A DNA stretch of 34,561 bases from an uncultured Oscillospiraceae bacterium (GTDB lineage Bacteria > Bacillota > Clostridia > Oscillospirales > Oscillospiraceae), in contig CALWXG010000026.1 in the NCBI GenBank assembly GCA_944385435.1, forward strand, positions 1 through 34,561, in the 5' to 3' direction. Below the pieces are notes generated by a model. That model was not told the DNA's origin. It saw only the letters and a list, made by a program, of their open reading frames with translations, and ran no database searches. The position numbers and the translations under genes are program-made. The first letter of the stretch is position 1. Every line of letters begins with the position of its first letter. Below are positions 21,405 through 34,561 of the stretch, piece after piece.

Positions 21405-23375
21405 TCAGGGCGCCCGGCAGAACGCCCCTCTCTCATCCAAATACTGCAGGATCTCTTCCACTGCCGGCCGGACTCCCTGGGAAGAATCGATCACCAGATC
21501 ATAGTTGGCCGCCTCACCCCAGCGCTTTCCGGAAATATGGTGGTAGTAAGCGGCCCTGGCCCGGTCGGAACGGCGGATGTTTTCTTCCGCGTCTTCCCTG
21601 GTGTCTCCGTAGACCTCCATTGCCCGGCCAATCCGGTATTCCCTGTCCGCACGGATAAAGATTTTTACCACATTGGGATGATCCCGGAGCACATGGTCCG
21701 CAGCCCTTCCCACGATGACACAGCTGCCGTTCTCCGCGATCTTTTCAATGATCTGGTGCTGGGCTGCCACTGCAAACCGGACAACTCTGGTACTCAGATA
21801 TAAGTTGTAAAGCGCCTTGGGGGCGTTGCGGTTCAGGCCGGAGATGAACTCCCGGTCCAATCCGCTCTCCTGGGCGGCCAACGCCGTCATCTCCTTGTAA
21901 TAGAAGGGTATGCCCATCCTCTGCGCCACCTGCCGCCCGATCTCTTTCCCGGAGGAGCCGTGCTCCCGGGCGATGGTGAGAATAACCCCGGGATGTGAGG
22001 GCTGGATCACCGCCGCGGCGCGCCTTTGATCCAGCAGCGGTGCGTCTTTTACATATGGATGGTCCAGGAACTGCCGGTAGTACACCAGACCCAGCAGACT
22101 GGTCAGCGTCTCCGTCACCGGGAAGGTCAGCCAGAAACTGGCCAGCCCGAACCGGGCAAACAACGCGCCAAGCGGGACAAACAGCACCACGGTCCGTACT
22201 ATGGTCAGCATGGAACTCTTGACTGCGGCGCCCACAGCCTGGAAAAACACAGGAAACACCAGGGAGGTCACCATGGGAATAAAGCTGATCCCGATCAGGC
22301 GGAAGCCCCAGCGCCCGATCTCGATGACCCGTTCATCTGAGGTAAACACCCGCAGCATAAGCCCCGGAATGCTCTCATAGCACAGCGTCCCCATGGCCAT
22401 CAGCACCATGCCGAACAGAATGGCGGTGATCAGCGTCACCTTGCAGCGCCGGATATGCCTGGCGGCGTAATTAAAGCTGACAATGGGGACAATACAGGTC
22501 TGCATCGCGTTGAGCGGGATAAAGAAAAAGGTCTGCCATTTGTAGTACAGTCCCAAGGCGGTCACTGCCTGGTCGGAAAACCCGGACAGAATCAGGTTGA
22601 GTCCGAATATATAAAAGGTATAGGCGGACTGCATCAGGATATTGGGAATCCCCAGGCGAAAAATTTCCGCGATCCGGCGGGGGTAGACCGCTCTGGGGGG
22701 AGATTTCCGGTACCCTTTTTTCATCACCACCAGAGCCGCCACCATCTGTCCCGCTACGGTAGCTATGGCAGCTCCAGCAATCCCCAGCTCAGGAAGGCCA
22801 AACATGCCGAAAATCAGCAGCGGATCCAGCACGATGTTGGTAACCGCCCCCAGGATCTGAGCCACCATAGGCGTCTTCATGTCACCCTGGGCCTGGAGAA
22901 TCTTGGTCCAAATGCTCTCAAAAAACAGGCCGAAGCTGAACAGGCACACGATGCGCCCGTAGGTCACCACCTCTGCCACCACCTCCGGGGAAGGCGAGGA
23001 CAGCCTTGCATAAGCCGGCATTATCAGCCAGCTAACCGCGGCAAAGACAATCCACAACACGCCGGCCAACGGCGTCCCGATCCCTGCGAATTCCTGGGCT
23101 GATTTCTGATTGCCCACTCCAAACCGGGCTGCCATGGCCGAATTGATGCCCACACCGGTGCCTACGGCCAGCGCCATCATCAAAAGCTGGATGGGATAAA
23201 TGATGGAGAGGGCTGTCAGACCGGATTCGGTATATCGTCCCACAAACAAACTGTCCACAATATTGTAAAGGGCTTGGATGAGCTGTGCCAGCATAACGGG
23301 CGGCGCAATTCTCAGCAGGATTTTCCAAATTTTCTCCTGCCCGAAAAACTGTGCTTCTGCGCTTGTGTGCTCCAT
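21405..23375 (-). CDS. MATE transporter fused to cytidylate-kinase-like domain
   Basis: This 656-residue protein joins two domains. Residues 1 to about 445 form a 12-segment MATE (multidrug and toxic compound extrusion) transporter, recognisable by the duplicated bundles and the conserved LALYNIVDSLFVGR-like opening. Residues about 460-656 resemble the cytidylate-kinase-like family: TIAREHGSSGKEIGRQVAQ looks like the P-loop region, and IVGRAADHVL and NIRRSDRARAAYYHHI follow. The tail would face the cytoplasm. I chose ATG 23375 because GGGGAG precedes it by seven bases. It follows marR with overlap of coding ends, so regulator and transporter share a transcript. Similar fusions exist in Clostridia; the kinase substrate is unknown. 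Confidence 0.9.
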   Translation of the reverse strand: MEHTSAEAQFFGQEKIWKILLRIAPPVMLAQLIQALYNIVDSLFVGRYTESGLTALSIIYPIQLLMMALAVGTGVGINSAMAARFGVGNQKSAQEFAGIGTPLAGVLWIVFAAVSWLIMPAYARLSSPSPEVVAEVVTYGRIVCLFSFGLFFESIWTKILQAQGDMKTPMVAQILGAVTNIVLDPLLIFGMFGLPELGIAGAAIATVAGQMVAALVVMKKGYRKSPPRAVYPRRIAEIFRLGIPNILMQSAYTFYIFGLNLILSGFSDQAVTALGLYYKWQTFFFIPLNAMQTCIVPIVSFNYAARHIRRCKVTLITAILFGMVLMAMGTLCYESIPGLMLRVFTSDERVIEIGRWGFRLIGISFIPMVTSLVFPVFFQAVGAAVKSSMLTIVRTVVLFVPLGALFARFGLASFWLTFPVTETLTSLLGLVYYRQFLDHPYVKDAPLLDQRRAAAVIQPSHPGVILTIAREHGSSGKEIGRQVAQRMGIPFYYKEMTALAAQESGLDREFISGLNRNAPKALYNLYLSTRVVRFAVAAQHQIIEKIAENGSCVIVGRAADHVLRDHPNVVKIFIRADREYRIGRAMEVYGDTREDAEENIRRSDRARAAYYHHISGKRWGEAANYDLVIDSSQGVRPAVEEILQYLDERGAFCRAP

Positions 23376-23392
23376 AGTCTCTCTCCCCATTC

Positions 23393-23830
23393 TCACGTTT
23401 TCATGGCGCGCTCCATCGCCTGGTCATAAGCGAATACTGCCTCCACCATGGAGCGGATATTATCCCGTCCCAACGCCTCCAGAGCCTGCAGTTCCACTTG
23501 GTTCAGGACTTCCAGCAGGGGCTGGGCGTACTGTTTTCCCTGCCGGGAGAGCACAAAGGCTTTTTCCCTCCCAACGCAGTGGGCAGGACTCAGTTCCAGC
23601 AGTCCTCGCTCCCGCAGATCCAGGAACACATGGTTCATGGTTTGTCTCGGCAGCAGGTAACTGTCACATATTTGCTTTTGTGTGCAGAACCCCTGTTCCC
23701 GGATGGTGTAGAGCACCAACAGCTCATGATAGCTGATGCCGTGCTCTTTCGACCACGCGGCATACAGTCCGCGAAAGTGAATGATTGCACGATTGATCTC
23801 AGACAGCAGTTTTAACGATTCCTGATCCAT
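23393..23830 (-). CDS. MarR-family regulator of the MATE fusion
   Basis: This 145-residue protein has the winged-helix pattern of MarR regulators: helices in YHELLVLYTIREQG, the helix-turn-helix TQKQICDSYLLPRQTMNHV and the wing LSPAHCVGREKAFVLS. The family are usually dimeric repressors released by small ligands. The ATG at 23830 has GGAGG seven bases upstream; the longer frame is upstream noise. A 44-bp palindrome overlaps its promoter, so it probably represses its own unit together with the MATE gene. The ligand is unknown, but efflux of a toxic compound is the usual case. Confidence 0.9.
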   Translation of the reverse strand: MDQESLKLLSEINRAIIHFRGLYAAWSKEHGISYHELLVLYTIREQGFCTQKQICDSYLLPRQTMNHVFLDLRERGLLELSPAHCVGREKAFVLSRQGKQYAQPLLEVLNQVELQALEALGRDNIRSMVEAVFAYDQAMERAMKT

Positions 23831-23866
23831 AGCGATCCTCCAAATTGCTTTCTTTCGCCTGGCAAC

Positions 23867-23922
23867 GAGGCGCGGCCTATAATCCCATTTGGGATTATAG
23901 GCCGCGCCTCTCCACATGTCAA
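23867..23922 (-). promoter_or_regulatory. marR-MATE promoter overlapped by 44-bp palindrome
   Basis: A perfect TTGACA (complement of 23917-23922) and TATAAT (complement of 23894-23899) are 17 bases apart. A perfect inverted repeat, 21-base arms at 23867-23887 and 23890-23910 with a two-base centre, spans the -10 and the likely transcription start. This fits a MarR operator. Confidence 0.88.
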
Positions 23923-24032
23923 TCCTTTTTTCTGAGCTGCCGGCATGACAGCGGGCCCTCCGCCGAAACAGCAGCAACGGACATTTTGAACGGAACCGTT
24001 TGCCGTCCCCCATAAAAACAGATGGCGGGACT

Positions 24033-26714
24033 TTACAGCGTCACAGTCAGGTCGTTCTCGCCGTTCTCATACCGATACCCCGTCTCAGTGAAGTACCCCC
24101 GCAACAGCTTCATGGACAGCGCTTCGCCCTCTTCCAGAGGATTAAAAGCCTCGCCGCCCCAGGTGAAGCGCATCTGAGCCTTTCCAGTTTCCTCGGAGTA
24201 CTCGGCGGTAACGTGCAGCTCATAGTCACCGGCACTGCGGGGAATCACGTTGGTAGCGCAGATCTCCTCGAAAGCCCGGCGCATATTGTCCAGCTGGCGG
24301 CGCGGCATGAGCTGCTTCTCGCCAAACCGCTGGAGCTGCTCGGTGACGGCGATGAAGTCGTAGTTCGGATTGGTAATGGTTAGCGTGAGCATTTTCAGGC
24401 GGTGGACGAAGGCCCGGGTGCGCTCCCGCCTGGGGTGGTCAAAAATCTCCTCAGGTGTACCGTCCTCGTAGATCACTCCCTGGTCCATATAGAACACCCG
24501 GGTGGATACATCCCGTGCGAAGCGCATCTCGTGGGTAACAATCATCATGGTAAGCCCTTGAGATGCCAGCTGGCGGATGACCGTGAGGACTTCCCCCACC
24601 ATGGTGGGGTCCAGGGCGGAGGTGGGCTCGTCAAAAAGGACGATCTCAGGCTCCATGGCCAGGGTCCTGGCAATGGCAGCCCGCTGCTTCTGGCCGCCGG
24701 AAAGCTCGTCGGGGTAGCTCATGGCCTTTTCCGCCATGCCCACCTTCTTCAGAAGTCCCATAGCCCGTTCATAGGCCGCCTGCTTGGGCACCTTCCGGAT
24801 CAGGGTAGGCGCAAGCATAATGTTCTCAAGGATAGTCAGGTGACCGAAGAGGTCAAACTGCTGGAATACCATGCCCATCTGGCGGCGCAGGGTGTTGAGA
24901 TCTGCCCTTTTGTCACACACGTTCTCTCCGTGGACAAAGATTGCCCCTGCCGTTGGGGTCTCCAGCCGATTGATGCACCGCAGCAAAGTGGATTTTCCGG
25001 TTCCGGAGGGACCGATGACGGTAATGACTTCTCCCCGGCGGATGGAGGTGTTCACATCCACGAGCGGAGTAACGTTGGAGAAGGATTTCTTCAGGTGTTC
25101 GATGCGGATCAGCTCTTCCTGTTCAAATATCCGGGGCGGAGCGTCGGAAACTGCCGGGTGCTCGGTCTCAACCACACCCCTGGGCAGCCGCCGTGGACGG
25201 CGGCGGGGGTCGATGTTCAGCTCAATCCTGCCGATGGCGCCTGCCACGGCGGAGGAGATGGCAAAATAGATAACCGCCGTGGTGATAAGAGGGAAGAATG
25301 CCTCAAAGATGCGGCTGCGGATCAGGTCCCCGGCCCGGGCCAGATCCTGGATGGAGATATAGCCTACGATGGAGGTCATCTTGATCATGGCCACCACTTC
25401 GCTCTTGTAAATGGGCAGGACATGCCGGACGGCCTGCGGCAGCACCACATGGAGGAAGCTGGAAACCCGCCCGAAACCCAGGGCCGACGCAGCCTCCCAC
25501 TGCCCGGTGTCCACAGCCTGGATGCCTGCGTTCAGGGTTCCAGCCACAGATACGGCAAAGATCAGCGAGAAGGAGATCACCGCCACAGCCACCGGGTCAA
25601 TGTCCGAGGAGGCGAAAATGACAAAGTTCACAATGAGCAGTACCACCAGGTTGGGCACGCCCTCCATGACCTTGCAGAACACCCGCCCTGCGCCGGCCAC
25701 TGCTCTGCGGCGGCTGCGCAGCACCAGGCACAGGCCAAAGCCCAGGGCCGTGCCGAACAGGCCGGTGAGCAGGGAGATCTCCAGCGTCACCAGCAGCCCG
25801 CTGAGGATCATCTTCCAGCGGCTTTCCCGGATGAAGGTCTTCTCAAAGTTGGACACGATACCGTCCCAGAAGCTCTCTGTGCCAGCCGTCTCCCTGCTGG
25901 CCACCACCATGACGGTCCGCACCGTCTTGTAGGGGTTGGAAAAGTCCATGGCTTCCCGCCGCTCTTCCGTGGCGAAGAGATTGGACATGATGTAGTCCAC
26001 CTTGCCGGAAGTACAGGCGGGCATGATGCCGTACCAGTCGTAGACGTCGATGATAAGCTCTGCATTGCACCACAGGGCAAAGCGGTACATGAGCTCCAGG
26101 TCAAACCCCACCAGCTCATTGTCCTGATAGAAGGAATAGGGTTCGGCGGCGCCGGTGGTGCCCACCCTGATAACAAAATCCGGATCCTCCGGCACGGGAA
26201 TGTCCGGCATGGTATAGTCGTGCTCTGTCTCCCACCGACGGTTCATGTCCTCCAGGGTGCCGTCTGCCTGGATCTCGGCGATAAAGCCGTTGATCAGCCC
26301 CGCAGCATCGGGCAGCTCTGTCACGGGACTGATGCCCACTGCCACATCGCCCCCCTCCCCCACTACGCCGTCGGGGTGAATTGCCACATCGCTGCGCTGG
26401 GGCTCCACACTGCTTTCATAGGCAGTAAGGTTCATGGCATAGGCATCGGCCTTGCCGGAGGTGACGGCCAGGAGACCGTCGGTGGCGCTGTTGACATACA
26501 CAATCTGGGCGTCTGGATAGGCGCTGCGGGCATCGCTCTCCGTGGTGGTGCCCACCTCGGCGGCAATTACAGCGTCCGGGGCGCTCAGGTCAACCATCCC
26601 TCCCCCTTCGCTTTCCGGCCCGCTGTTCCCGCTGCCGCAGGCGGCCAGCATCAGGCAAACCGCACACATCAGCAGTGCAATCGCCCCTTTTCTCCAGGTT
26701 CCACTCATTCTCAT
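24033..26714 (-). CDS. Amino-acid ABC importer fusion: SBP, permease, ATPase, RsbW-like tail
   Basis: This 893-residue polypeptide contains nearly a whole importer. A lipoprotein signal with lipobox LAAC (Cys26) starts it. The substrate-binding part has lobe 2 (about 45-150) before lobe 1 (about 183-262), the reverse of normal. The permease (about 295-500) has five segments and the EAA loop. The ATPase (about 535-771) has GPSGTGKST near 568, LSGGQKQR near 671 and DEPTSALD near 698. The last ~120 residues resemble an RsbW/GHKL ATPase, with [12 protein letters not shown] in the N-box region. Amino-acid uptake is inferred from the family. ATG 26714 has AGGAGG seven bases upstream. It is divergent from STAS 1 and shares a palindromic operator. 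Confidence 0.88.
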
Positions 26715-26759: not shown

Positions 26760-26768
26760 ACTATACCA
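26760..26768 (-). promoter_or_regulatory. Promoter -10 of the ABC fusion
   Basis: On the minus strand TGGTATAGT forms an extended -10, 25 bases from the palindrome at 26791-26812. No consensus -35 is present, which suggests activator dependence. Confidence 0.55.
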
Positions 26769-26790
26769 TATTGGCAGGAGGCCCCGGCTT

Positions 26791-26812
26791 ACTTTACAAT
26801 TTTGTAAGGTTC
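26791..26812. promoter_or_regulatory. Palindromic operator shared by ABC fusion and STAS 1
   Basis: The core TTACAA-TT-TTGTAA (26794-26807) is a perfect dyad. The full 22 bases recur exactly, inverted, at 31423-31444. The copy sits 25 bases from the -10 of the ABC gene on one side and 23 bases from the -10 of STAS 1 on the other. Confidence 0.75.
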
Positions 26813-26832
26813 CCCGCCCGCTTCTCTTTTGA

Positions 26833-26841
26833 TGGTAAGAT
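26833..26841 (+). promoter_or_regulatory. Promoter -10 of STAS 1
   Basis: TGGTAAGAT gives an extended -10-like site with TAAGAT at 26836-26841. It is 23 bases beyond the palindrome, with no clear -35. Confidence 0.5.
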
Positions 26842-26943
26842 ACAAGCGGTATTTTGTTCCGGCAATGCCCGCTCCAGCCCACTGGGACACACCCCCTCCG
26901 AGCGGGCAGACCACATCCGATATCTCTATGGGAGGACATTACC

Positions 26944-27240
26944 ATGACCATCACAAAAAGCGCTGCCGATGGAACCATGTACATGGCTCTGGACGGGCGG
27001 CTGGACACCAGCACTGCACACCAGCTGGAGGAGGAGCTGAAGGCCTCCCTTCCCGGGACCACAGAACTTACCCTGGATTTTTCCGGTCTGGACTATCTCT
27101 CCTCCGCGGGTTTGCGGGTGCTGTTGGCAGCCCAGAAGACCATGAACGGACGGGGAAAGATGACTATCTGCCATGTCAACGAGGCTATTATGGAGGTCTT
27201 TGAACTCACCGGTTTCGTGGACATCCTGAACATTCTCTGA
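26944..27240 (+). CDS. STAS-domain anti-sigma antagonist-like protein 1
   Basis: This 98-residue single-domain protein has the SpoIIAA/RsbV STAS fold. [18 protein letters not shown] opens it, [20 protein letters not shown] holds the Ser-Ser-Ala-Gly motif (residues 53-56) that contains the phosphorylated serine in the family, and [12 protein letters not shown] closes it. In known partner switches an RsbW-type kinase binds and phosphorylates such proteins. GGGAGG lies eight bases before the ATG. It is divergent from the ABC fusion, whose tail is RsbW-like, and 58 of 98 residues match the second STAS gene. No sigma factor is beside it. Confidence 0.92.
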
Positions 27241-27575
27241 TCTGAATCAAACCGTCCTCATACACAGCATCCGGACTCCGGTCCGAGCTGCCGGCCAGAG
27301 AATTGCAGCTTTTGTTTTGAGCCGCCGGTGGTAGCTTCCGTTTTCCAGCGCTGACACGCAGGTGCCGACCTTCACACAGACAAACAATAAAAAATGCTCC
27401 CTCCACGTTTGACAGCGCGTTCCTTCACTGTTTCTCATGGAGGGAGTATTTTCTTTCACACGTTGCCGCTGCCAGTTCGTACATATGGCCGAAGTGTCCT
27501 GTATGACCAAGCCTGCCACCCGCGCGCTCGCCGGCATCGGGATCCTATCCCTTTATGTAGTCGTTGCGTGTGCGC
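27241..27575. other. Gap between convergent STAS genes
   Basis: This 335-base gap has no gene. It contains the bidirectional terminator at 27391-27452. The remainder, 27241-27390 and 27453-27575, shows nothing recognisable. Confidence 0.6.
27391..27452. terminator. Bidirectional terminator between STAS genes
   Basis: A 15-bp stem (27391-27405 and 27438-27452) with one wobble pair closes a 32-base loop. A T-run follows on the plus side (TTTTCTTT) and a longer one (TTTTTTATTG) on the minus side. It would end both convergent STAS genes. Confidence 0.82.
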
Positions 27576-27872
27576 TCACTGGATGGTGAGGATATCCACA
27601 AATCCAGTTACCTCAAAAATTTCCTGGATCACATCGTTCACATTATGTATGACCATGCTGCCCTGCTTGTTCATCACCTTCTGAGCAGACAACAGTACAC
27701 GAAGGCCGGCAGAAGACAGGTATTCCAGTTTGGAAAAGTCCAATACGAGTTCCGTCACCCCATCCATGGATTGCCTCAGCTCCGCCTCCAGCTGGGGGGC
27801 GGTGGTCGTGTCGAGGCGGCCCTCTATGCCAAGTGTAAGCTTCGTTCCCTCTACGGTTTTATTGACTGTCAT
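27576..27872 (-). CDS. STAS-domain anti-sigma antagonist-like protein 2
   Basis: This 98-residue paralogue of STAS 1 keeps the full core: [37 protein letters not shown] and EVTGFVDILTIQ. I counted 58 identical residues of 98 in an ungapped alignment. The Ser-Ser-Ala-Gly motif (53-56) is intact, so it should be switchable by phosphorylation. The ATG at 27872 has AGGGGG eight bases upstream. It has its own leader of about 115 bases and no copy of the palindromic operator, so it may be controlled differently from STAS 1. Confidence 0.92.
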   Translation of the reverse strand: MTVNKTVEGTKLTLGIEGRLDTTTAPQLEAELRQSMDGVTELVLDFSKLEYLSSAGLRVLLSAQKVMNKQGSMVIHNVNDVIQEIFEVTGFVDILTIQ

Positions 27873-27992
27873 TGATTGATCCCCCTGACGTTTTGGCAGC
27901 CAAGGCTGCCGGAAATATTCAGCGTGTTTAAAAAGACAAACCCTCAGGGCCGTTTCCGACCCTGCGTGCCTCAATATGACTTATTGTACCCC

Positions 27993-27998
27993 ATTATA
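27993..27998 (-). promoter_or_regulatory. Candidate STAS 2 promoter -10
   Basis: A TATAAT on the minus strand lies about 120 bases upstream of STAS 2. The -35 is not consensus. Confidence 0.45.
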
Positions 27999-28092
27999 CC
28001 GCAGATATCAATCAGTTCTTTTCCAAAAAACGCAAAGAAAGCGCCACTCCCTGCCCATGTGCTTCCCGGGGTGCGCGGGGCAGCCAGCAGAG

Positions 28093-28133
28093 AAAAGGGA
28101 TGGAACCTTTCCAGGAAAAGTTCCATCCCTTTT
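28093..28133 (-). terminator. Terminator of the SLH hydrolase gene
   Basis: A 14-bp stem (AAAAGGGATGGAAC / GTTCCATCCCTTTT) with a 13-base loop lies 88 bases past the hydrolase stop and is followed by T residues on the minus strand. Confidence 0.85.
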
Positions 28134-28220
28134 CGATCGCGGTTTTCCCCTCACTCCGCGCCCGGCAGTATCACCGGAACGGAAACCGCGGAGGCCGCGC
28201 TCCCAGCCTTGAGGATCGTC

Positions 28221-31200
28221 TCACAGGACAAACTGGCAGAACCGCAGAAGCATGGCGGCAACCTCCGCCCGGGTAGCCTCGTCCCGGGGGCTGAGCTTGG
28301 TGTTTGTGGTACCATTGAGGATACCCTGTTCCACACACCAGGCCACGGCTTGCCGGGCCCAGCTGCTGACGCTCATAGCGTCGGTGTAGCCGCCGAGATC
28401 CGAAGCTGCGTCGGGGCTGCCCGCGTACCGCCAAAGCATGGCGGCCAGCTGCTCCCGGCTCAGATTCTGTTCCATGGCAGAGCCGTCGGAGATGCCGTTG
28501 GCCATGGCCCACTGCATACCGGCCTCATACCAGGTGCTGCCGGTGGTGGTATCCGCGCCGTCCAGACGGGCCAGCACGGTGACGATCATGGCCCGGGTCA
28601 TGGCTGTTTCCGGTTCAAAGGAGTTGGCGCTGGTTCCATGGAACAGTTCACGGCTGCTGGCAAAGGCCACTGCCTGCGCCCCCCAGTAGTCGTCGGACAC
28701 ATCGTCAAAGTTCTTGCTGTTGTCCACGATTTTCACCGTGTCTCCATCCGTGAGGGTGACGGCTACGCCGTTTTCCGTGCTCAGGCTGGTTCTGATGACC
28801 GCCTCCGTGCCATCGGCCTTGACGATCACCGCCACAGTGCCGGCAGTGACATTCTCCACCGGAATCTCCACTCTGACAGAAGTTCCGCCAGGCAGATCCA
28901 CGGTGACCGTGGAGGCGTTCTCCCAGTCCGCACAGGCAAGCACCTCCGGCATGGGCAGAGCCAAGGTCTCGCCCTCCGCCTCTTCCACCACAGCGGCAGG
29001 CAGCCTTACAGAGCTCTCGGTCCGGCCGTTTTCATCCACCTTGGTAGCGGAGGAAGATCCGTCCCGGTTGTCTACGGTAATCTGGCCGGAACCGTCGGCG
29101 CTCTCCACCACCTCGGTCCGGTTTCCGTCCGCATCAGTGGTGGTTGTCGTGATGTTGCCTTCTTTGTCCGTCTCCACAATCTCCTGGGAACCGTCCGGAT
29201 TCCTGGTGGTCTCGGTGGTGGACCCATCGGGTTTGGTCACGGTGGTTGTGGTGGAGCCGTCCGGGTTGGTGACTGTCTCAGTAGTGGAGGAAGGACGACC
29301 CCCTTGTCCGCCGGAGGGATCGTCCGGGGTAGGCTCGGGTTCAGGTTCAGGTTCAGGTTCAGGTAAAAACTCAGGCTCTTTCAGGGTCACGCTGGTGGCC
29401 GCGCCGGCGAGGATATCAGTGCTGCTACCGCCTAGTATATATTCGTATGTATAAGTGACCTCTGCCCCATCCTCAGCGATGGTGTAAATATCATCGTCCG
29501 CATCGCAGGTGTTGAAAACCTGCCGGATGCTGTAGCCCTCGGGCAGATAGCTGTCGGGGACGGTTATGCTGTTATACGCCCGGACGGCGGCCATCCAGCC
29601 TTCAGCAGAAAGCACCGCGCCCTGCTCTATCACCATATTGAAGCCTTCAACTCCGACGCCGCCCTCGCATAGGGCGGTTGCGGTGACGGCGGAATCGCCT
29701 GAAACGATCAGATCGCCTATAGACGATTTCAGCCCGGCATAATAAGAGTAAATGGTATAGGTTCCTGTACTGTGCGCATACACGATACTATCCGTAATTG
29801 TGAGGTCGTAACTCGCGTCTATGCCGGCCCCTCCGCCGGTGGCGGAGACGGTGCTGTCGCTGATAGATATATAGCTGTTCCCGATGGCGGGGCCGCCTGC
29901 GCTGTTCACGGTGACATTGCTGCCGCTGATTTGCGTGGTAACCTTGCCGGTGCTGCTGTTGTTATACAAACCATTCCCTGCGGCGTTGACTGTAAGCGTG
30001 CAGTCTGTGATGTGCAGGTTGGATCCGGCGTGGTTGATGCCGGTACCGCCGCTGGTGATTTTCAGCGAGCTGTTGCCAATGAAAAGTTCTCCGTTGGTCC
30101 GGATGCCGGTACCGCCGCTGGTGATTTCCAGCGAGCCATTGGAAGCGCTGCTGATGGAAAGTTCTCCGTAGGGGTAAATGCCCATGGAATTTTCGCCGCC
30201 AACGAGGATTGAATTCTCGCCCTCGAGGACGATATTCAATCCGCCATCCACGCTGATGCCGGAGATTTCACCGGGATAAGCGGTTTTCCCATTGGTGATT
30301 TCGGCGTTGTCCAGCGTCAGGGTGTTGGTGACCGGGTCATAGACTGCGGTGCCGTCGCCGCACTGAACGGTGTGGTTCTCCGCCGCCAGAACATCTTTCC
30401 CATTCACCCACAGGCTGTCCACCAGGGGCTCAGGGGTTTCATCCCCGCCCTCCGGCGGGGTCCAGCCTTCCAGCAGGCGGAGGACCTCATCCGCGATCAG
30501 CTCATGACCGTAGGCATTGGGGTGGAAGTCCAGGTTGATTTCCGGTACGAGGCCATTCATCGTAATTGAGGCATTGCAGGGATTCTGATCTGCCTCCTCA
30601 AAGACAGTATACACGTCCGCCACACTGTAGAGATTGGGGCTCAAAAAGTCAATCTCCCAGTTCAGCTCGCTCAAAACTACGTCAAAGGCCTCCACCACCG
30701 AGCCCATACCGGCCGCTGAACCCATGCCGGCGGCAAGACGGCTGTATGGGTTGTACTGATTCATTACGATCATGTGGACGTCATGATTCAGGCGCTGGAG
30801 GAAGTAAATGCAGGCGGTAAAATTGCTTGAAATATTATCAAGTGCTGCGTCATACTGTTCAGAATTGATAAAGCCGCCGATCTTGTCAATGGCGGCGGTC
30901 AGTGTAGCTACATTGCCTTCCATGAGGGCTGTCTGTATGGCTTCGGAAGTGCTGCCTGTTGCCTCGGCCAAATACGCATACAGCGCCTCCATCAGGTCGT
31001 TGCCGCCGATGGTGATGGTGATGAGGTCGGCGCTGGCCAAAACATCTGTATTTTCTCCACTCAGAACAACCTCCAGCAGATCCTCCGAGGTAGCGCCGTC
31101 TTCCGCCAGGTTGGTCAGGTCATAACCGTTTTTCTCGGCGACTATTTCAGCGAAGGATGGTTCGCCCTCATTCAATCCATACCCGGCGGAGATGCTGTCC

Positions 31201-31304
31201 CCCAGGGCCACGTAGCTGATGGTATCCTGGGCAAAGGCCGCCGTGGGCAGCAGGCCAAGCAGGAAGCACAGGCTGAGCAGCAGTGTAAGGATCCGTTTTT
31301 TCAT
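28221..31304 (-). CDS. Secreted SGNH hydrolase with beta-helix and SLH domains
   Basis: This 1027-residue surface protein has a signal peptide (1-25, cut near AFA). The SGNH/GDSL esterase domain (about 27-275) shows GDS with Ser37, ITIGGNDLME and DFHPNAYGH, giving the catalytic Ser-Asp-His set. A right-handed beta-helix-like repeat region follows (about 290-620). A proline-glutamate linker, then about eight PDGS/TTT-type tandem repeats, lead to three SLH motifs (about 855-1027) that would bind the cell wall. AAGGAGGT is eight bases before the ATG. A palindromic operator and -10 lie upstream. It is likely to cleave ester bonds on host or plant glycans or lipids; the substrate is unknown. Confidence 0.92.
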   Translation of the reverse strand: MKKRILTLLLSLCFLLGLLPTAAFAQDTISYVALGDSISAGYGLNEGEPSFAEIVAEKNGYDLTNLAEDGATSEDLLEVVLSGENTDVLASADLITITIGGNDLMEALYAYLAEATGSTSEAIQTALMEGNVATLTAAIDKIGGFINSEQYDAALDNISSNFTACIYFLQRLNHDVHMIVMNQYNPYSRLAAGMGSAAGMGSVVEAFDVVLSELNWEIDFLSPNLYSVADVYTVFEEADQNPCNASITMNGLVPEINLDFHPNAYGHELIADEVLRLLEGWTPPEGGDETPEPLVDSLWVNGKDVLAAENHTVQCGDGTAVYDPVTNTLTLDNAEITNGKTAYPGEISGISVDGGLNIVLEGENSILVGGENSMGIYPYGELSISSASNGSLEITSGGTGIRTNGELFIGNSSLKITSGGTGINHAGSNLHITDCTLTVNAAGNGLYNNSSTGKVTTQISGSNVTVNSAGGPAIGNSYISISDSTVSATGGGAGIDASYDLTITDSIVYAHSTGTYTIYSYYAGLKSSIGDLIVSGDSAVTATALCEGGVGVEGFNMVIEQGAVLSAEGWMAAVRAYNSITVPDSYLPEGYSIRQVFNTCDADDDIYTIAEDGAEVTYTYEYILGGSSTDILAGAATSVTLKEPEFLPEPEPEPEPEPTPDDPSGGQGGRPSSTTETVTNPDGSTTTTVTKPDGSTTETTRNPDGSQEIVETDKEGNITTTTTDADGNRTEVVESADGSGQITVDNRDGSSSATKVDENGRTESSVRLPAAVVEEAEGETLALPMPEVLACADWENASTVTVDLPGGTSVRVEIPVENVTAGTVAVIVKADGTEAVIRTSLSTENGVAVTLTDGDTVKIVDNSKNFDDVSDDYWGAQAVAFASSRELFHGTSANSFEPETAMTRAMIVTVLARLDGADTTTGSTWYEAGMQWAMANGISDGSAMEQNLSREQLAAMLWRYAGSPDAASDLGGYTDAMSVSSWARQAVAWCVEQGILNGTTNTKLSPRDEATRAEVAAMLLRFCQFVL
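29338..29361. repeat. Hexanucleotide repeat coding for Pro-Glu linker
   Basis: Four perfect GGTTCA units encode part of the proline-glutamate linker before the tandem repeats. Being six bases long, slippage would change linker length without shifting the frame. Confidence 0.9.
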
Positions 31305-31393
31305 GGTCGTTAACCTCCTTAAAACATGTCGTCTGCCCAAGCAGGCGCAGACAGGCTGGAGCGCTCCCGGGCTGTGTGAAATACTCGCAATTT

Positions 31394-31444
31394 ATGATAT
31401 ACCCATAAAAGGCACAGGCGGCGAACCTTACAAAATTGTAAAGT
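31394..31444 (-). promoter_or_regulatory. SLH hydrolase promoter with second palindromic operator
   Basis: The second operator copy (31423-31444, core TTACAA-AA-TTGTAA at 31428-31441) lies upstream of TATCAT (complement of 31394-31399), 23 bases apart, or of the overlapping TATATC at 21. Beyond the 22-base motif, six of eight further bases match the STAS 1 copy. No consensus -35 is present. Confidence 0.7.
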
Positions 31445-31459
31445 CCGCCGCCCGCGGTC

Positions 31460-32128
31460 TTATATCTGCTCCAAGGTATATCCGTCGCCCCGCCGGGAGG
31501 AGATCTCCAGACGGGAATGCTCGCTGTCCAGCTTCCGCCGAAGCCGGGAGATAAGCGTCCAGAGGGCCCGGTTATCCTCCTCTGCGTTTAGGTTCCACAC
31601 CTCCCGCAGCACCTCTTGTTTTGAGACCGTCTCACCGGCGTGCTTTACCAGCAACAGCAGCAGCGCAAACTCTTTCTGCGTCAACATCAGGTCTGTGTCC
31701 CCCAAATAGCCCCGGCCGGAAAAGACATCCAGACGCAGGGGGCCGTAACTCACGTAACGGCTACGGGCGCGCTCCTGCCGCAGCCGCGCCTCAATCCGGG
31801 CCGCCAGCACCTCCAGATCATAGGGTTTGGCCAAATAGTCGTCGCCCCCCGCCCGCAAACCCTCCACCACATCACGGCTCTCGCCCAGGGCGCTGAGAAA
31901 CAGGATTGGGACCCGGTAGTTCTCCTTCAGCTCCCGGCACAGCTGCACGCCGTCGCCATCGGGCAGCATGATATCCAGCACCACCAAATCCACCGGGTGC
32001 CACCGCATGACCTCCCGGCAAGCCTTGGCGGTGGTCGCCTGCAGGATTTCATAACCGTACATGGTCAGAGCCTCAGAATTGATTTTCATAATGTGAGGAT
32101 TGTCTTCCACCAGCAGGATCGTACTCAT
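31460..32128 (-). CDS. OmpR-family response regulator
   Basis: This 222-residue protein has a receiver domain with acidic pocket near residues 8-9, phosphoacceptor Asp52 (VLDIMLPDGDG), the conserved threonine/serine in FLSA and Lys101 (LAKPYD). The C-terminal winged helix (about 128-222) includes LTQKEFALLLLLVKHAG and RRKLDSEH, so it binds DNA. Its ATG overlaps the kinase stop as ATGA, so the two are translationally coupled. It ends 16 bases before the palindrome upstream of the SLH hydrolase, which makes it the obvious candidate to bind that motif, but that is inference; OmpR-type proteins often prefer direct repeats. Confidence 0.94.
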   Translation of the reverse strand: MSTILLVEDNPHIMKINSEALTMYGYEILQATTAKACREVMRWHPVDLVVLDIMLPDGDGVQLCRELKENYRVPILFLSALGESRDVVEGLRAGGDDYLAKPYDLEVLAARIEARLRQERARSRYVSYGPLRLDVFSGRGYLGDTDLMLTQKEFALLLLLVKHAGETVSKQEVLREVWNLNAEEDNRALWTLISRLRRKLDSEHSRLEISSRRGDGYTLEQI

Positions 32129-34071
32129 GGCTCCAGCTCCCTTCTCGGCACCGTAAAGGCGAAGACCGTCCCCTCGGGGCCGGTGCGCTCCACCTCCAGC
32201 ACTCCGCCGTGGGCTTCCACAACTTCTCGGCAGATGGCCAGGCCCAGGCCGCTGCCGCCGTCTCCGCTGAATCCCTTTTCAAAAATACGGGGCAGCAGAT
32301 CCGCATCAATGCCGTCTCCGGTGTCCTCCACCCGGAACACCACGTGCTCAGGGTGCTCCCCGTCCGAGGCACTGACGGAGATAACCCCGTTTTTCGTGTG
32401 GCGGTTGGCATTGACCACCAGATTAATAAGTATCTGCAGCAGCATCTCCCCGCTGCCGTAGACGTCCGTGCAGTTCTCTCCCCGGATCTCCACCCGGTTG
32501 CCGTTTTTCAGACACATGGGGGTGCAGATGGCCCGCACGTTTTCCAGCAAAGGCTTCACTCCCACCGTGCCCAAAAGGAGCTCACGCTCCAAGCCGTGAG
32601 AATAGTCCATGAGCTTGTTCACCATATCTGCCAGCCGCAGAGCCTCATCCCGGATAGTTCTCAGATTTTCCGGCGTCTCACTGGTGACGTGGCCGGTGGA
32701 CATCTGCATCCGCGTGAGCTGGGCATAACCGGAAATAACGGTGAGAGGGGTTTTCAGCTCATGGGCCACCTGGTGGAGAAAGTCCAGGTTCATGGCATTC
32801 ATCCGCTCCAACAGCTCGCTGCGGCTGCGGCTCTCTGCCAAAGCCGCCTCCTGCGCCCTGGCCCGAAGACTGATCGACGCTGCAATAAGCAGGTCAAAAA
32901 TCAGCATCCCCGCTGGCATGATCCCGTTATGGCTGACCGACGAACTGTTGTTGACATAGACCGCCTCCAGCAGAATGGAGAGGATGAGTACGGCCGCGCC
33001 GCACACGGTCAGCGCGTCGGCGGTCCGGAACGCCTTCTGCCGCAGATAGTAGCGCACCATACACCAGACGAGGTAGGCCAGATAGGGGAGCGCACAGACC
33101 CAGGCGATGGTACACACCATCACCAGCCAGATGGTGGGCAGTGTGGCTATGAGCACTGCGGCCAGCCCCATGGCCGTCCCGTAAACCAAGGTCGGACCGG
33201 TTCTTACTGTGCTGGGATACAGACTTCCCAGCAGCAGGAGCACCATCCCCGGCAGCAATGCAGTCACAATCATAAAGAGCCGGTAGGCGAAGTACCAGGA
33301 GGTGTCCGGAGGCAGAAGGTGAATGACCAGAAAGTTCTGGTCCCGGAGGGCCATCATCAGGCAGCAGACAGCCAGCAGCAGGAAACCGCCCCGCCGCTGC
33401 AGCGCGGCACACAGCAGAAAATACAGAAACAGCACCAGCAGCCCGCCGCTCAGGCTCAGAGAAACCAGATCATTACCCGCTTTAAATACCTCCATATTCT
33501 GGGGTGCGGACAGATAGGTAGGCTGGATGAACCCTCCGTCCTTGTGGACGAAGTTGGAAAACTGGTAGATGATCTCAATTTCCCCCATCTCCCCGGACCA
33601 AAGAGGGATCGTCATATAGCCGATCCGGGGCACGCTCTCCTCCGCATTGTCCGCTACCACGCCGTAATTGGCGGCCTCCACGCCGTTGACAAACACCCGG
33701 GTGCTGTAGTCGACGGAATAGGAGCAAAGTGTATAGTACTGCTCCGGCCGGGCCCGGATGACCAGGCGGTAGGTGCCGCAGCGGGCCTCGCCGCCTTTCT
33801 CCCCCAGGTGCAGAAGGTCCCGGCCGCCGAGGGCGAAATCTTCCGGGGTGTACAGAACACCAGGGTAAAAATCCCAGCTGTTCTGGATATTGACCACCTC
33901 TTGGGACAAGTCAATCTCAGTGAGATCCAACACACCGTCCACAGGAATGGTCACGCGGAGATGGCCGGATATTCTGGCGAAAAACAGCTGGGCAAGCAGC
34001 GCGGCCAGCAGCACAATGACAACCGGAACCTGCCACCGCAGATGGCGGTCCCGTTCCTTCTCAGTCTGCAT
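32125..34071 (-). CDS. 7TMR-DISM sensor histidine kinase
   Basis: This 648-residue kinase has one N-terminal membrane segment (14-32), an extracytoplasmic jelly-roll-type domain (about 40-200) of the 7TMR-DISM kind (note WDFYPGVLYTPEDF), then seven membrane segments (about 205-405). The cytoplasmic core has the H box FLHQVAHELKTPLTVISGY near residue 437, N box LLQILINLVVNANRHTKNG, G1 DTGDGID and G2 GSGLGLAI, so it is intact. Extracytoplasmic 7TMR-DISM domains often bind carbohydrates, fitting a link to the surface hydrolase. GGGGAGGT precedes the ATG. Response regulator follows with ATGA overlap. Confidence 0.94.
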   Translation of the reverse strand: MQTEKERDRHLRWQVPVVIVLLAALLAQLFFARISGHLRVTIPVDGVLDLTEIDLSQEVVNIQNSWDFYPGVLYTPEDFALGGRDLLHLGEKGGEARCGTYRLVIRARPEQYYTLCSYSVDYSTRVFVNGVEAANYGVVADNAEESVPRIGYMTIPLWSGEMGEIEIIYQFSNFVHKDGGFIQPTYLSAPQNMEVFKAGNDLVSLSLSGGLLVLFLYFLLCAALQRRGGFLLLAVCCLMMALRDQNFLVIHLLPPDTSWYFAYRLFMIVTALLPGMVLLLLGSLYPSTVRTGPTLVYGTAMGLAAVLIATLPTIWLVMVCTIAWVCALPYLAYLVWCMVRYYLRQKAFRTADALTVCGAAVLILSILLEAVYVNNSSSVSHNGIMPAGMLIFDLLIAASISLRARAQEAALAESRSRSELLERMNAMNLDFLHQVAHELKTPLTVISGYAQLTRMQMSTGHVTSETPENLRTIRDEALRLADMVNKLMDYSHGLERELLLGTVGVKPLLENVRAICTPMCLKNGNRVEIRGENCTDVYGSGEMLLQILINLVVNANRHTKNGVISVSASDGEHPEHVVFRVEDTGDGIDADLLPRIFEKGFSGDGGSGLGLAICREVVEAHGGVLEVERTGPEGTVFAFTVPRRELEP

Positions 34072-34211: not shown

Positions 34212-34561
34212 TTACAGGATCAGCCGGACACTGTTTTCCCCCTGAACGATGTCAGTGCACACCGCCTGAAGCATGGTCAGGGAGAGTTCGTCCCCGCCCT
34301 GGTCCTCCAGGACAAAGGGCTGGTCCGCGGCCGCATGGACGGAAAGAATGCTGTCCTTCATGCTGTAGGCCACGGTCACGTCAATGGCAAAGCGTTCCCC
34401 CTTCATCTGGGGAAGCAGGATATTGACCAGCAGCTCCTCCAGAGCCAGCTGCACCCGGTAGATCTGCTTCTCCGTTGCGAACTGCCGCCGGCAGAACTCC
34501 ACCACCGCACCGTTGAAGCCGTAGATGTCGCAGAACCGGTCGGAGACGGGCCGGCGGAAGG
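34212..34561 (-). CDS. C-terminal part of RsbW-like protein, cut by window edge
   Basis: The frame remains open to the window edge (upstream residues FRRPVSDRFCDIYGFNGAVVEF), so the start lies outside. The visible 116 residues resemble an RsbW/GHKL-type ATPase: VQLALEELLVNILLPQ is an N-box region with Glu and Asn. The glycine boxes are weak. The part resembles the tail of the ABC fusion: EE-N-P spacing near the front and an LS-(M/T)-L-(R/Q) block near the end align. It may be a separate anti-sigma-type protein or the end of a larger transporter-like protein. Its orientation suggests a gene upstream of the kinase pair. Confidence 0.7.
   Translation of the reverse strand, partial: FRRPVSDRFCDIYGFNGAVVEFCRRQFATEKQIYRVQLALEELLVNILLPQMKGERFAIDVTVAYSMKDSILSVHAAADQPFVLEDQGGDELSLTMLQAVCTDIVQGENSVRLIL

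Follow-up and report, generated by a model that had tools for sequence, protein, structure and literature searches.

Many OmpR-family sites are direct repeats, and the BceR-type motif is reportedly treated in primary papers by Dintner (2011) and Fang (2017). According to the abstract of a study on PhoP of M. tuberculosis, this regulator uses a direct-repeat site. For BceR-type regulators, an excerpt of PMC9020739 gives the consensus TNACA-N4-TGTAA with an AT-rich centre; a related consensus is given for PsdR/ApsR in an excerpt of PMC10858260, where BceS-like kinases are described as having no extracellular domain. Here we analysed a repeated 22-base element in DNA from an uncultured Oscillospiraceae bacterium. 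The window, that is, the whole stretch analysed, is a complete contig (C26, 34,561 bases) of an assembly of 2,870,206 bases (2.87 Mb). Both copies of the element have the TNACA-N4-TGTAA core and the AT-rich centre, and the two-component system whose genes lie at 31460-34071 very probably uses it as its operator. As read from sequence, it is best described as a putative activator operator of the OmpR family that has a BceR-type core, a regulator from a separate clade, a rigid distance to the extended -10 and, at copy 2, an overlapping terminator-like hairpin. The repeat, its rarity, its co-occurrence with the regulator, the fixed spacing and a hairpin at one copy were all computed directly.

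26791-26812, plus strand: operator copy 1 (ACTTTACAATTTTGTAAGGTTC), separating the divergent genes of the ABC fusion and STAS1
31423-31444, minus strand: operator copy 2 (exact reverse complement of ACTTTACAATTTTGTAAGGTTC), between the stop codon of the response regulator (RR) and the hydrolase gene
31460-32128, minus strand: OmpR-type RR, the proposed binder (Pfam Response_reg and Trans_reg_C; co-occurrence)
32125-34071, minus strand: sensor histidine kinase, its gene overlapping that of the RR (HisKA and HATPase_c; 7TMR-DISM_7TM under the cut-off; structure model)

A sequence-only reading of this DNA had claimed exact reverse-complement 22-mers at 26791-26812 and 31423-31444, with an eight-base continuation carrying two mismatches; the sequence bears out both, the continuation being CCCGCCCG at one copy and GCCGCCTG at the other. 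The same reading called the element an exact palindrome, which holds for the two copies as exact inversions of each other and not for a single copy. The 22-mer itself is not a full palindrome: each copy is an imperfect one, with 8 of 10 pairs matching across the centred 20-mer, and the two copies are one element in opposite orientations.

The window holds three matches to the core at up to two mismatches, against 0.29 expected. An exact search of the whole assembly places the core TTACAANNTTGTAA twice, each time in the window, and its reversed control nowhere. With one mismatch, the looser pattern TTACANNNNTGTAA was found at 17 places in the assembly versus 32 for the reversed control; there is no excess, so the rarity signal rests on the full core together with its flanks. 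When the flanked core CYTTACAANNTTGTAARGTT was searched in the own genome at up to three mismatches, copies 1 and 2 were recovered along with a good site on contig C102 (3916-3937, one mismatch) and a poor one on contig C27 (three mismatches). Frequent occurrence without promoter context had been named beforehand as evidence against a regulatory site, and it was not what we saw: the flanked core occurs three times at no more than one mismatch, and every copy has a -10-like hexamer 28 bp away on one side or both.

The site and a cognate OmpR-type regulator occur together across genomes. Eighty related loci were kept, and the first 17 (L016-L032, 53-85% identity) were treated as orthologues; all 17 carry the core at no more than one mismatch of YTTACANNNNTGTAAR. 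It lies before the kinase gene in L016, L022, L023, L025-L027 and L029-L032, before an ABC2-kinase-regulator cluster in L017 and L020, just behind the regulator gene in L016, L019, L021, L024, L025, L027-L029, L031 and L032, and between STAS and ABC genes in L017 and L018. The placement of copy 1 between STAS and ABC genes is conserved in L017, L186, L189 and L190. Among 42 genomes of the genus, an RR orthologue (E below 1e-90; next best 2e-36) was found in three (G000, G005 and G017), each with the core beside it. Among 400 genomes of the family, six have an RR orthologue (E up to 1e-55) and 19 have CYTTACANNNNTGTAARG; G000, G005 and G256 have both. The other three RR-positive genomes (G295, G177 and G409) fall into a divergent subclade in which the flank is altered; the altered-flank site precedes the kinase gene in G295 and G177, and G409 was read only near the regulator. 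The flanked core is present in 14/15 genomes behind L016-L030 (25 sites), compared to 16/394 RR-negative family genomes.

The core alone was rejected as a marker, its exact form TTACAANNTTGTAA being present in 12 of the 42 genus genomes, only three of which have an RR orthologue. Other exact-core loci in the genus include L012 and L015, beside RR, kinase or ABC matches, and L003 and L009, for which no explanation was found. Six same-genus genomes (L005-L008, L011 and L013) have GTTACAATTTTGTAAC in a common context with unrelated flanks; this context looks like a replication-origin region.

The neighbourhood offers another possible binder:

23393-24013: MarR-like protein, directly after the ABC fusion (MarR_2 match just under the cut-off)

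MarR-type proteins bind palindromes, and this one is a close neighbour, and the site could be the operator of another regulator, such as this protein, with the two-component genes as bystanders. MarR-like matches (E up to 1e-10) were found in only 4/18 RR-positive genomes, and the best one outside the own genome reached 41% over part of the protein. We rejected the MarR-like protein as binder on this poor co-occurrence, and consider an operator of another regulator very improbable.

The operator of the two-component system, as we read it, should also have a fixed position relative to its promoters, as expected of the OmpR family. The elements concerned in the window and the genes proposed as targets are as follows.

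26833-26841, plus strand: STAS1 promoter, extended -10 TGGTAAGAT (28 bp from the core)
26760-26768, minus strand: ABC-fusion promoter, extended -10 TGGTATAGT (28 bp from the core)
31394-31399, minus strand: hydrolase promoter, -10-like hexamer TATCAT (28 bp from the core), lacking the TG and not a strict extended -10
26944-27240, plus strand: STAS1, anti-sigma-antagonist-like, proposed target
24033-26714, minus strand: ABC importer fusion (binding protein, permease, ATPase) with an RsbW/SpoIIAB-like C-terminus, proposed target
28221-31304, minus strand: secreted SGNH/GDSL hydrolase with SLH domains, proposed target

The -10-like hexamers previously reported in three directions are present at the distances given there, each 28 bp from the core end, and the reported lack of a good -35 was confirmed by a consensus promoter scan, which paired no -35 with any of the three. 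The same scan lists one promoter-like pair, at 26771-26800 (plus strand), whose second hexamer lies within copy 1.

A strict extended -10 was defined as TGNTANNNT, with spacing counted from the core end. At regulator-linked sites it starts 26-30 bp past the core in 30/35 directions, with a mode of 28; all spacings between 15 and 45 bp were 21 (1), 23 (1), 27 (5), 28 (19), 29 (4), 30 (2), 32 (1) and 41 (1). Shuffling the 60-base downstream regions (2000 trials) gave a mean of 0.34 and a maximum of 3 of 35, and the background at random positions was 91 of 44,000. The 35 directions leave out L024:7166 (one mismatch; strict -10 at 28), L030:10695 (none), L030:17426 (one at 30, in the reverse direction) and L159:3316 (none), as well as sites of the RR-negative genomes L160, L161 and L164 (no strict -10); restoring the four RR-positive sites gives 32/39. 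In the own genome, where 15 of the 17 one-mismatch places were read for spacing, only copy 1 (in both directions) and the C102 site have a strict -10 at 26-30 bp. Flanked-core sites in the genomes of L016-L030 have one in 14 of the 16 read (of 25 sites), while none of the 17 distinct flanked-core sites read in RR-negative family genomes does; among the 22 rows (21 distinct sites) of family genomes it occurs only in the RR-positive G000, G005 and G256. Since the spacing is found at regulator-linked sites and at none of the RR-negative ones, the element is best read as a candidate activator operator of this two-component system. The earlier proposal of an activator site bound by the neighbouring RR is supported to this extent, by orthologue co-occurrence and fixed -10 spacing.

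Several observations weigh against this assignment. The kinase, the regulator and their neighbours travel together, so co-occurrence cannot single out the RR among the proteins of the cluster. The own kinase operon promoter is absent from the assembly, the contig ending there. In L018 the site is confined to the gap between STAS and ABC genes, and L028 has it only with one mismatch. The sites scored for spacing had been oriented by their downstream gene beforehand, and a strict -10 is missing in 5/35 directions, including the hydrolase direction of the window itself; these five (hydrolase, L028, L157:4991, L017:5156 and L020:5181) each show, at 27-28 bp, a -10-like hexamer that lacks the TG.

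Because the core fits the published BceR consensus (PMC9020739, in the part cited above), the site might instead belong to a BceR-type regulator and its peptide-antibiotic resistance module. In line with this, of the 16 family genomes that carry the flanked core but are RR-negative, 13 place it next to an ABC-ATPase match or an RR/kinase match (L132-L138, L140 and L144-L148), in layouts that appear Bce-like, a label judged from gene layout with no family search. In the remaining RR-negative genomes, L131 and L141 have the site inside an apparent coding sequence, and L139 (G416) resembles the ABC2 promoter of L017, with no RR orthologue within 9 kb. In the own genome, none of the flanked cores (copies 1 and 2, C102 and the three-mismatch place) lies at a Bce-like module, as far as read. 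The regulators, too, argue against a Bce module. In a tree of 53 regulators, which includes no reference BceR and in which the Bce label was assigned from gene context (for L100, from its sequence), the 22 RR orthologues form a single clade (support 100/99), apart from the 8/9 Bce-labelled regulators that form a clade of their own (99/97); L015 falls elsewhere. Membership of the RR in the BceR lineage was therefore not found in this tree, where its nearest relatives are Oscillospiraceae and Oscillibacter records. Left out of the tree were L137, L032 (broken frame), L010 (sequence identical to L024) and four generic-regulator near-copies. The recognition helices read RALWTLISRLRRKL in the RR clade and NTLSVNMTRLRAKL in the Bce-linked regulators.

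The kinase differs as well. Its structure model (predicted local distance difference test score, 81) has a large, beta-rich extracellular part at residues 39-188, followed by seven membrane helices, whereas BceS-like kinases are described as having no such domain (PMC10858260, excerpt). The family 7TMR-DISM_7TM is matched by 16/17 kinase members (best E 2.7e-8), the window's own staying under the curated cut-off. Promoter geometry also separates the two groups: among 15 Bce-linked main sites, the -10 lies at 44-54 bp in nine and at 79 bp in one, with no good -10 in five, and a further half-site follows the main site in 9/15. Ownership of the element by a Bce system is accordingly very unlikely. 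Within the regulator's own group, the second position following TGTAA carries A in 4/4 sites of the divergent subclade (L031 twice, L162 and L163) and G in 27/28 main-group sites; on these sequences, the operator flank changes along with the regulator subclade.

Copy 2 also forms part of a terminator-like hairpin.

31413-31456, minus strand: terminator-like stem-loop of 20 pairs, its upper part being copy 2, followed by CCTTTTATGG

The stem has 11 GC pairs and stands on the RR/hydrolase strand behind the RR stop codon; a GC-rich stem and a T-run after the stop give it the layout of an intrinsic terminator, although the T-run CCTTTTATGG is weak. An Rfam scan of the window returned tRNAs only. 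With L030:10695 and L024:7166 excluded, the median uninterrupted stem was 15 pairs at 13 sites behind the regulator versus 8 at 19 others (Mann-Whitney p 1e-5), and a stem of at least 13 pairs with at least five T in eight bases was found at 8/13 versus 0/19. The outer arms vary among genomes yet pair at 6.2/10, compared to 5.2 for swapped flanks (3 of 2000 permutations). Not all data favour termination: the outer arms show some complementarity in the other classes too, where swapped flanks reach the observed mean in 70/2000 permutations at upstream sites and in 51/2000 at Bce-linked ones; L019, L021, L031 and L158, of the 13 behind the regulator, have no long stem; L024 has a stem that no T-run follows; taken by itself, the difference in T-runs is modest (p 0.027); and the third own-genome site, classed as upstream, folds strongly too (-28 kcal/mol). 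We infer termination from this pattern, the hairpin probably being the operon's terminator, which in most cases, though not in all, seems to have been built around the operator. That the palindromes are terminators or RNA hairpins only, with no role in DNA binding, would account for the stem at copy 2 and for the eight qualifying sites behind the regulator. Copy 1, however, is located 5' of two divergent genes, and the divergent and upstream sites keep the core and the -10 spacing with none of the 19 passing the terminator test, on which ground this explanation was rejected; it is very improbable. In the family, the Bce-like module operators of L133, L137 and L145 also lie within long hairpins, and placing an operator in a hairpin may be a habit wider than this system.

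These results are consistent with a model in which the neighbouring regulator activates rather than represses; both its identity as the binding protein and the sign of its action are inferred. With the -10 starting at -12, simple arithmetic puts the palindrome centre near -47. A phosphorylated regulator dimer would bind the TTACA-N4-TGTAA palindrome and its flanks, with the centre of the site some 47 bp upstream of the transcription start, and would recruit RNA polymerase to promoters whose extended -10 has no good -35 to accompany it. In this genome the SGNH-SLH hydrolase, STAS1 and the ABC fusion would be the likely targets; a GNAT/eCIS-core gene pair on contig C102 is a less sure one. Where the site precedes the kinase gene, as it does in relatives, it would provide self-activation, and behind the regulator gene it would usually also form the stem of a probable intrinsic terminator. 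Relative to the sequence-only reading, what is added is that the operon appears to be a regular target in relatives, that copy 2 is terminator-like, that the core is of the known BceR type, and that a third candidate site exists.

That third site, on C102, precedes genes for a GNAT acetyltransferase and an eCIS-core-domain protein (L156, 3970-6040), beyond which an open reading frame resembles, by appearance, an IS110-like transposase. The window also encodes a MatE transporter fused to a cytidylate-kinase-like domain (21405-23396, minus strand). Upstream of the kinase, a second ABC fusion is cut by the contig end:

34212-34559, minus strand: second ABC fusion, tail only

Its 5' cluster part was sought in the own genome and nothing was found, in a search without positive control. 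Both ABC fusions end in an RsbW/SpoIIAB fold (24036-24440 and 34212-34559, both minus strand), and two STAS genes adjoin them (26944-27240 and 27576-27872). The C-terminus has the GHKL/anti-sigma-kinase fold; sequence support for it is weak, HATPase_c_2 being matched in 7/8 members and not in the window's own ABC fusion. A transporter-borne partner switch, formed by the ABC C-termini and STAS proteins, is a possible prediction.

More tentatively, and with considerable doubt, the operator may sit inside the terminator of its own two-component operon such that the bound RR starts the surface-protein gene and limits or ends its own transcript, while also dosing the ABC-borne anti-sigma switch and STAS. 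If true, this would be a compact feedback device in which a single sensor links nutrient uptake, sigma-factor control and cell-surface remodelling. A little-studied two-component system gains a candidate operator, promoter geometry and target set from sequence alone. Two of the designs are unusual, the operator lying within a terminator and the anti-sigma-like tail on an ABC importer; neither was found described in the open-licence literature searched by title and abstract. Use of a BceR-type core beside a regulator of another clade, apparently distinguished by spacing and flanks, bears on how cross-talk between related regulators is avoided.

Three described systems come closest. The SpoIIAB/RsbW-SpoIIAA/RsbV switches resemble this locus in that a STAS protein is encoded opposite one of anti-sigma-kinase-like fold; at this locus an ABC importer carries that fold as its C-terminus, and the likeness concerns a target of the operator, not the element. 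OmpR/PhoB-family activated promoters share the winged-helix regulator, a site just upstream of the -35 position and, in relatives of this system, self-activation, but the site here is an inverted repeat with unusually fixed spacing to an extended -10. The BceRS-BceAB operators have the same inverted-repeat core, the AT-rich centre and an OmpR-family regulator, and several sites of both groups lie within a terminator-like hairpin. They differ in regulator clade, kinase architecture and targets, and where the Bce main site stands 44-54 bp from its -10 and is joined by a half-site, the element described here stands as one site, with an extended -10 at 28 bp.

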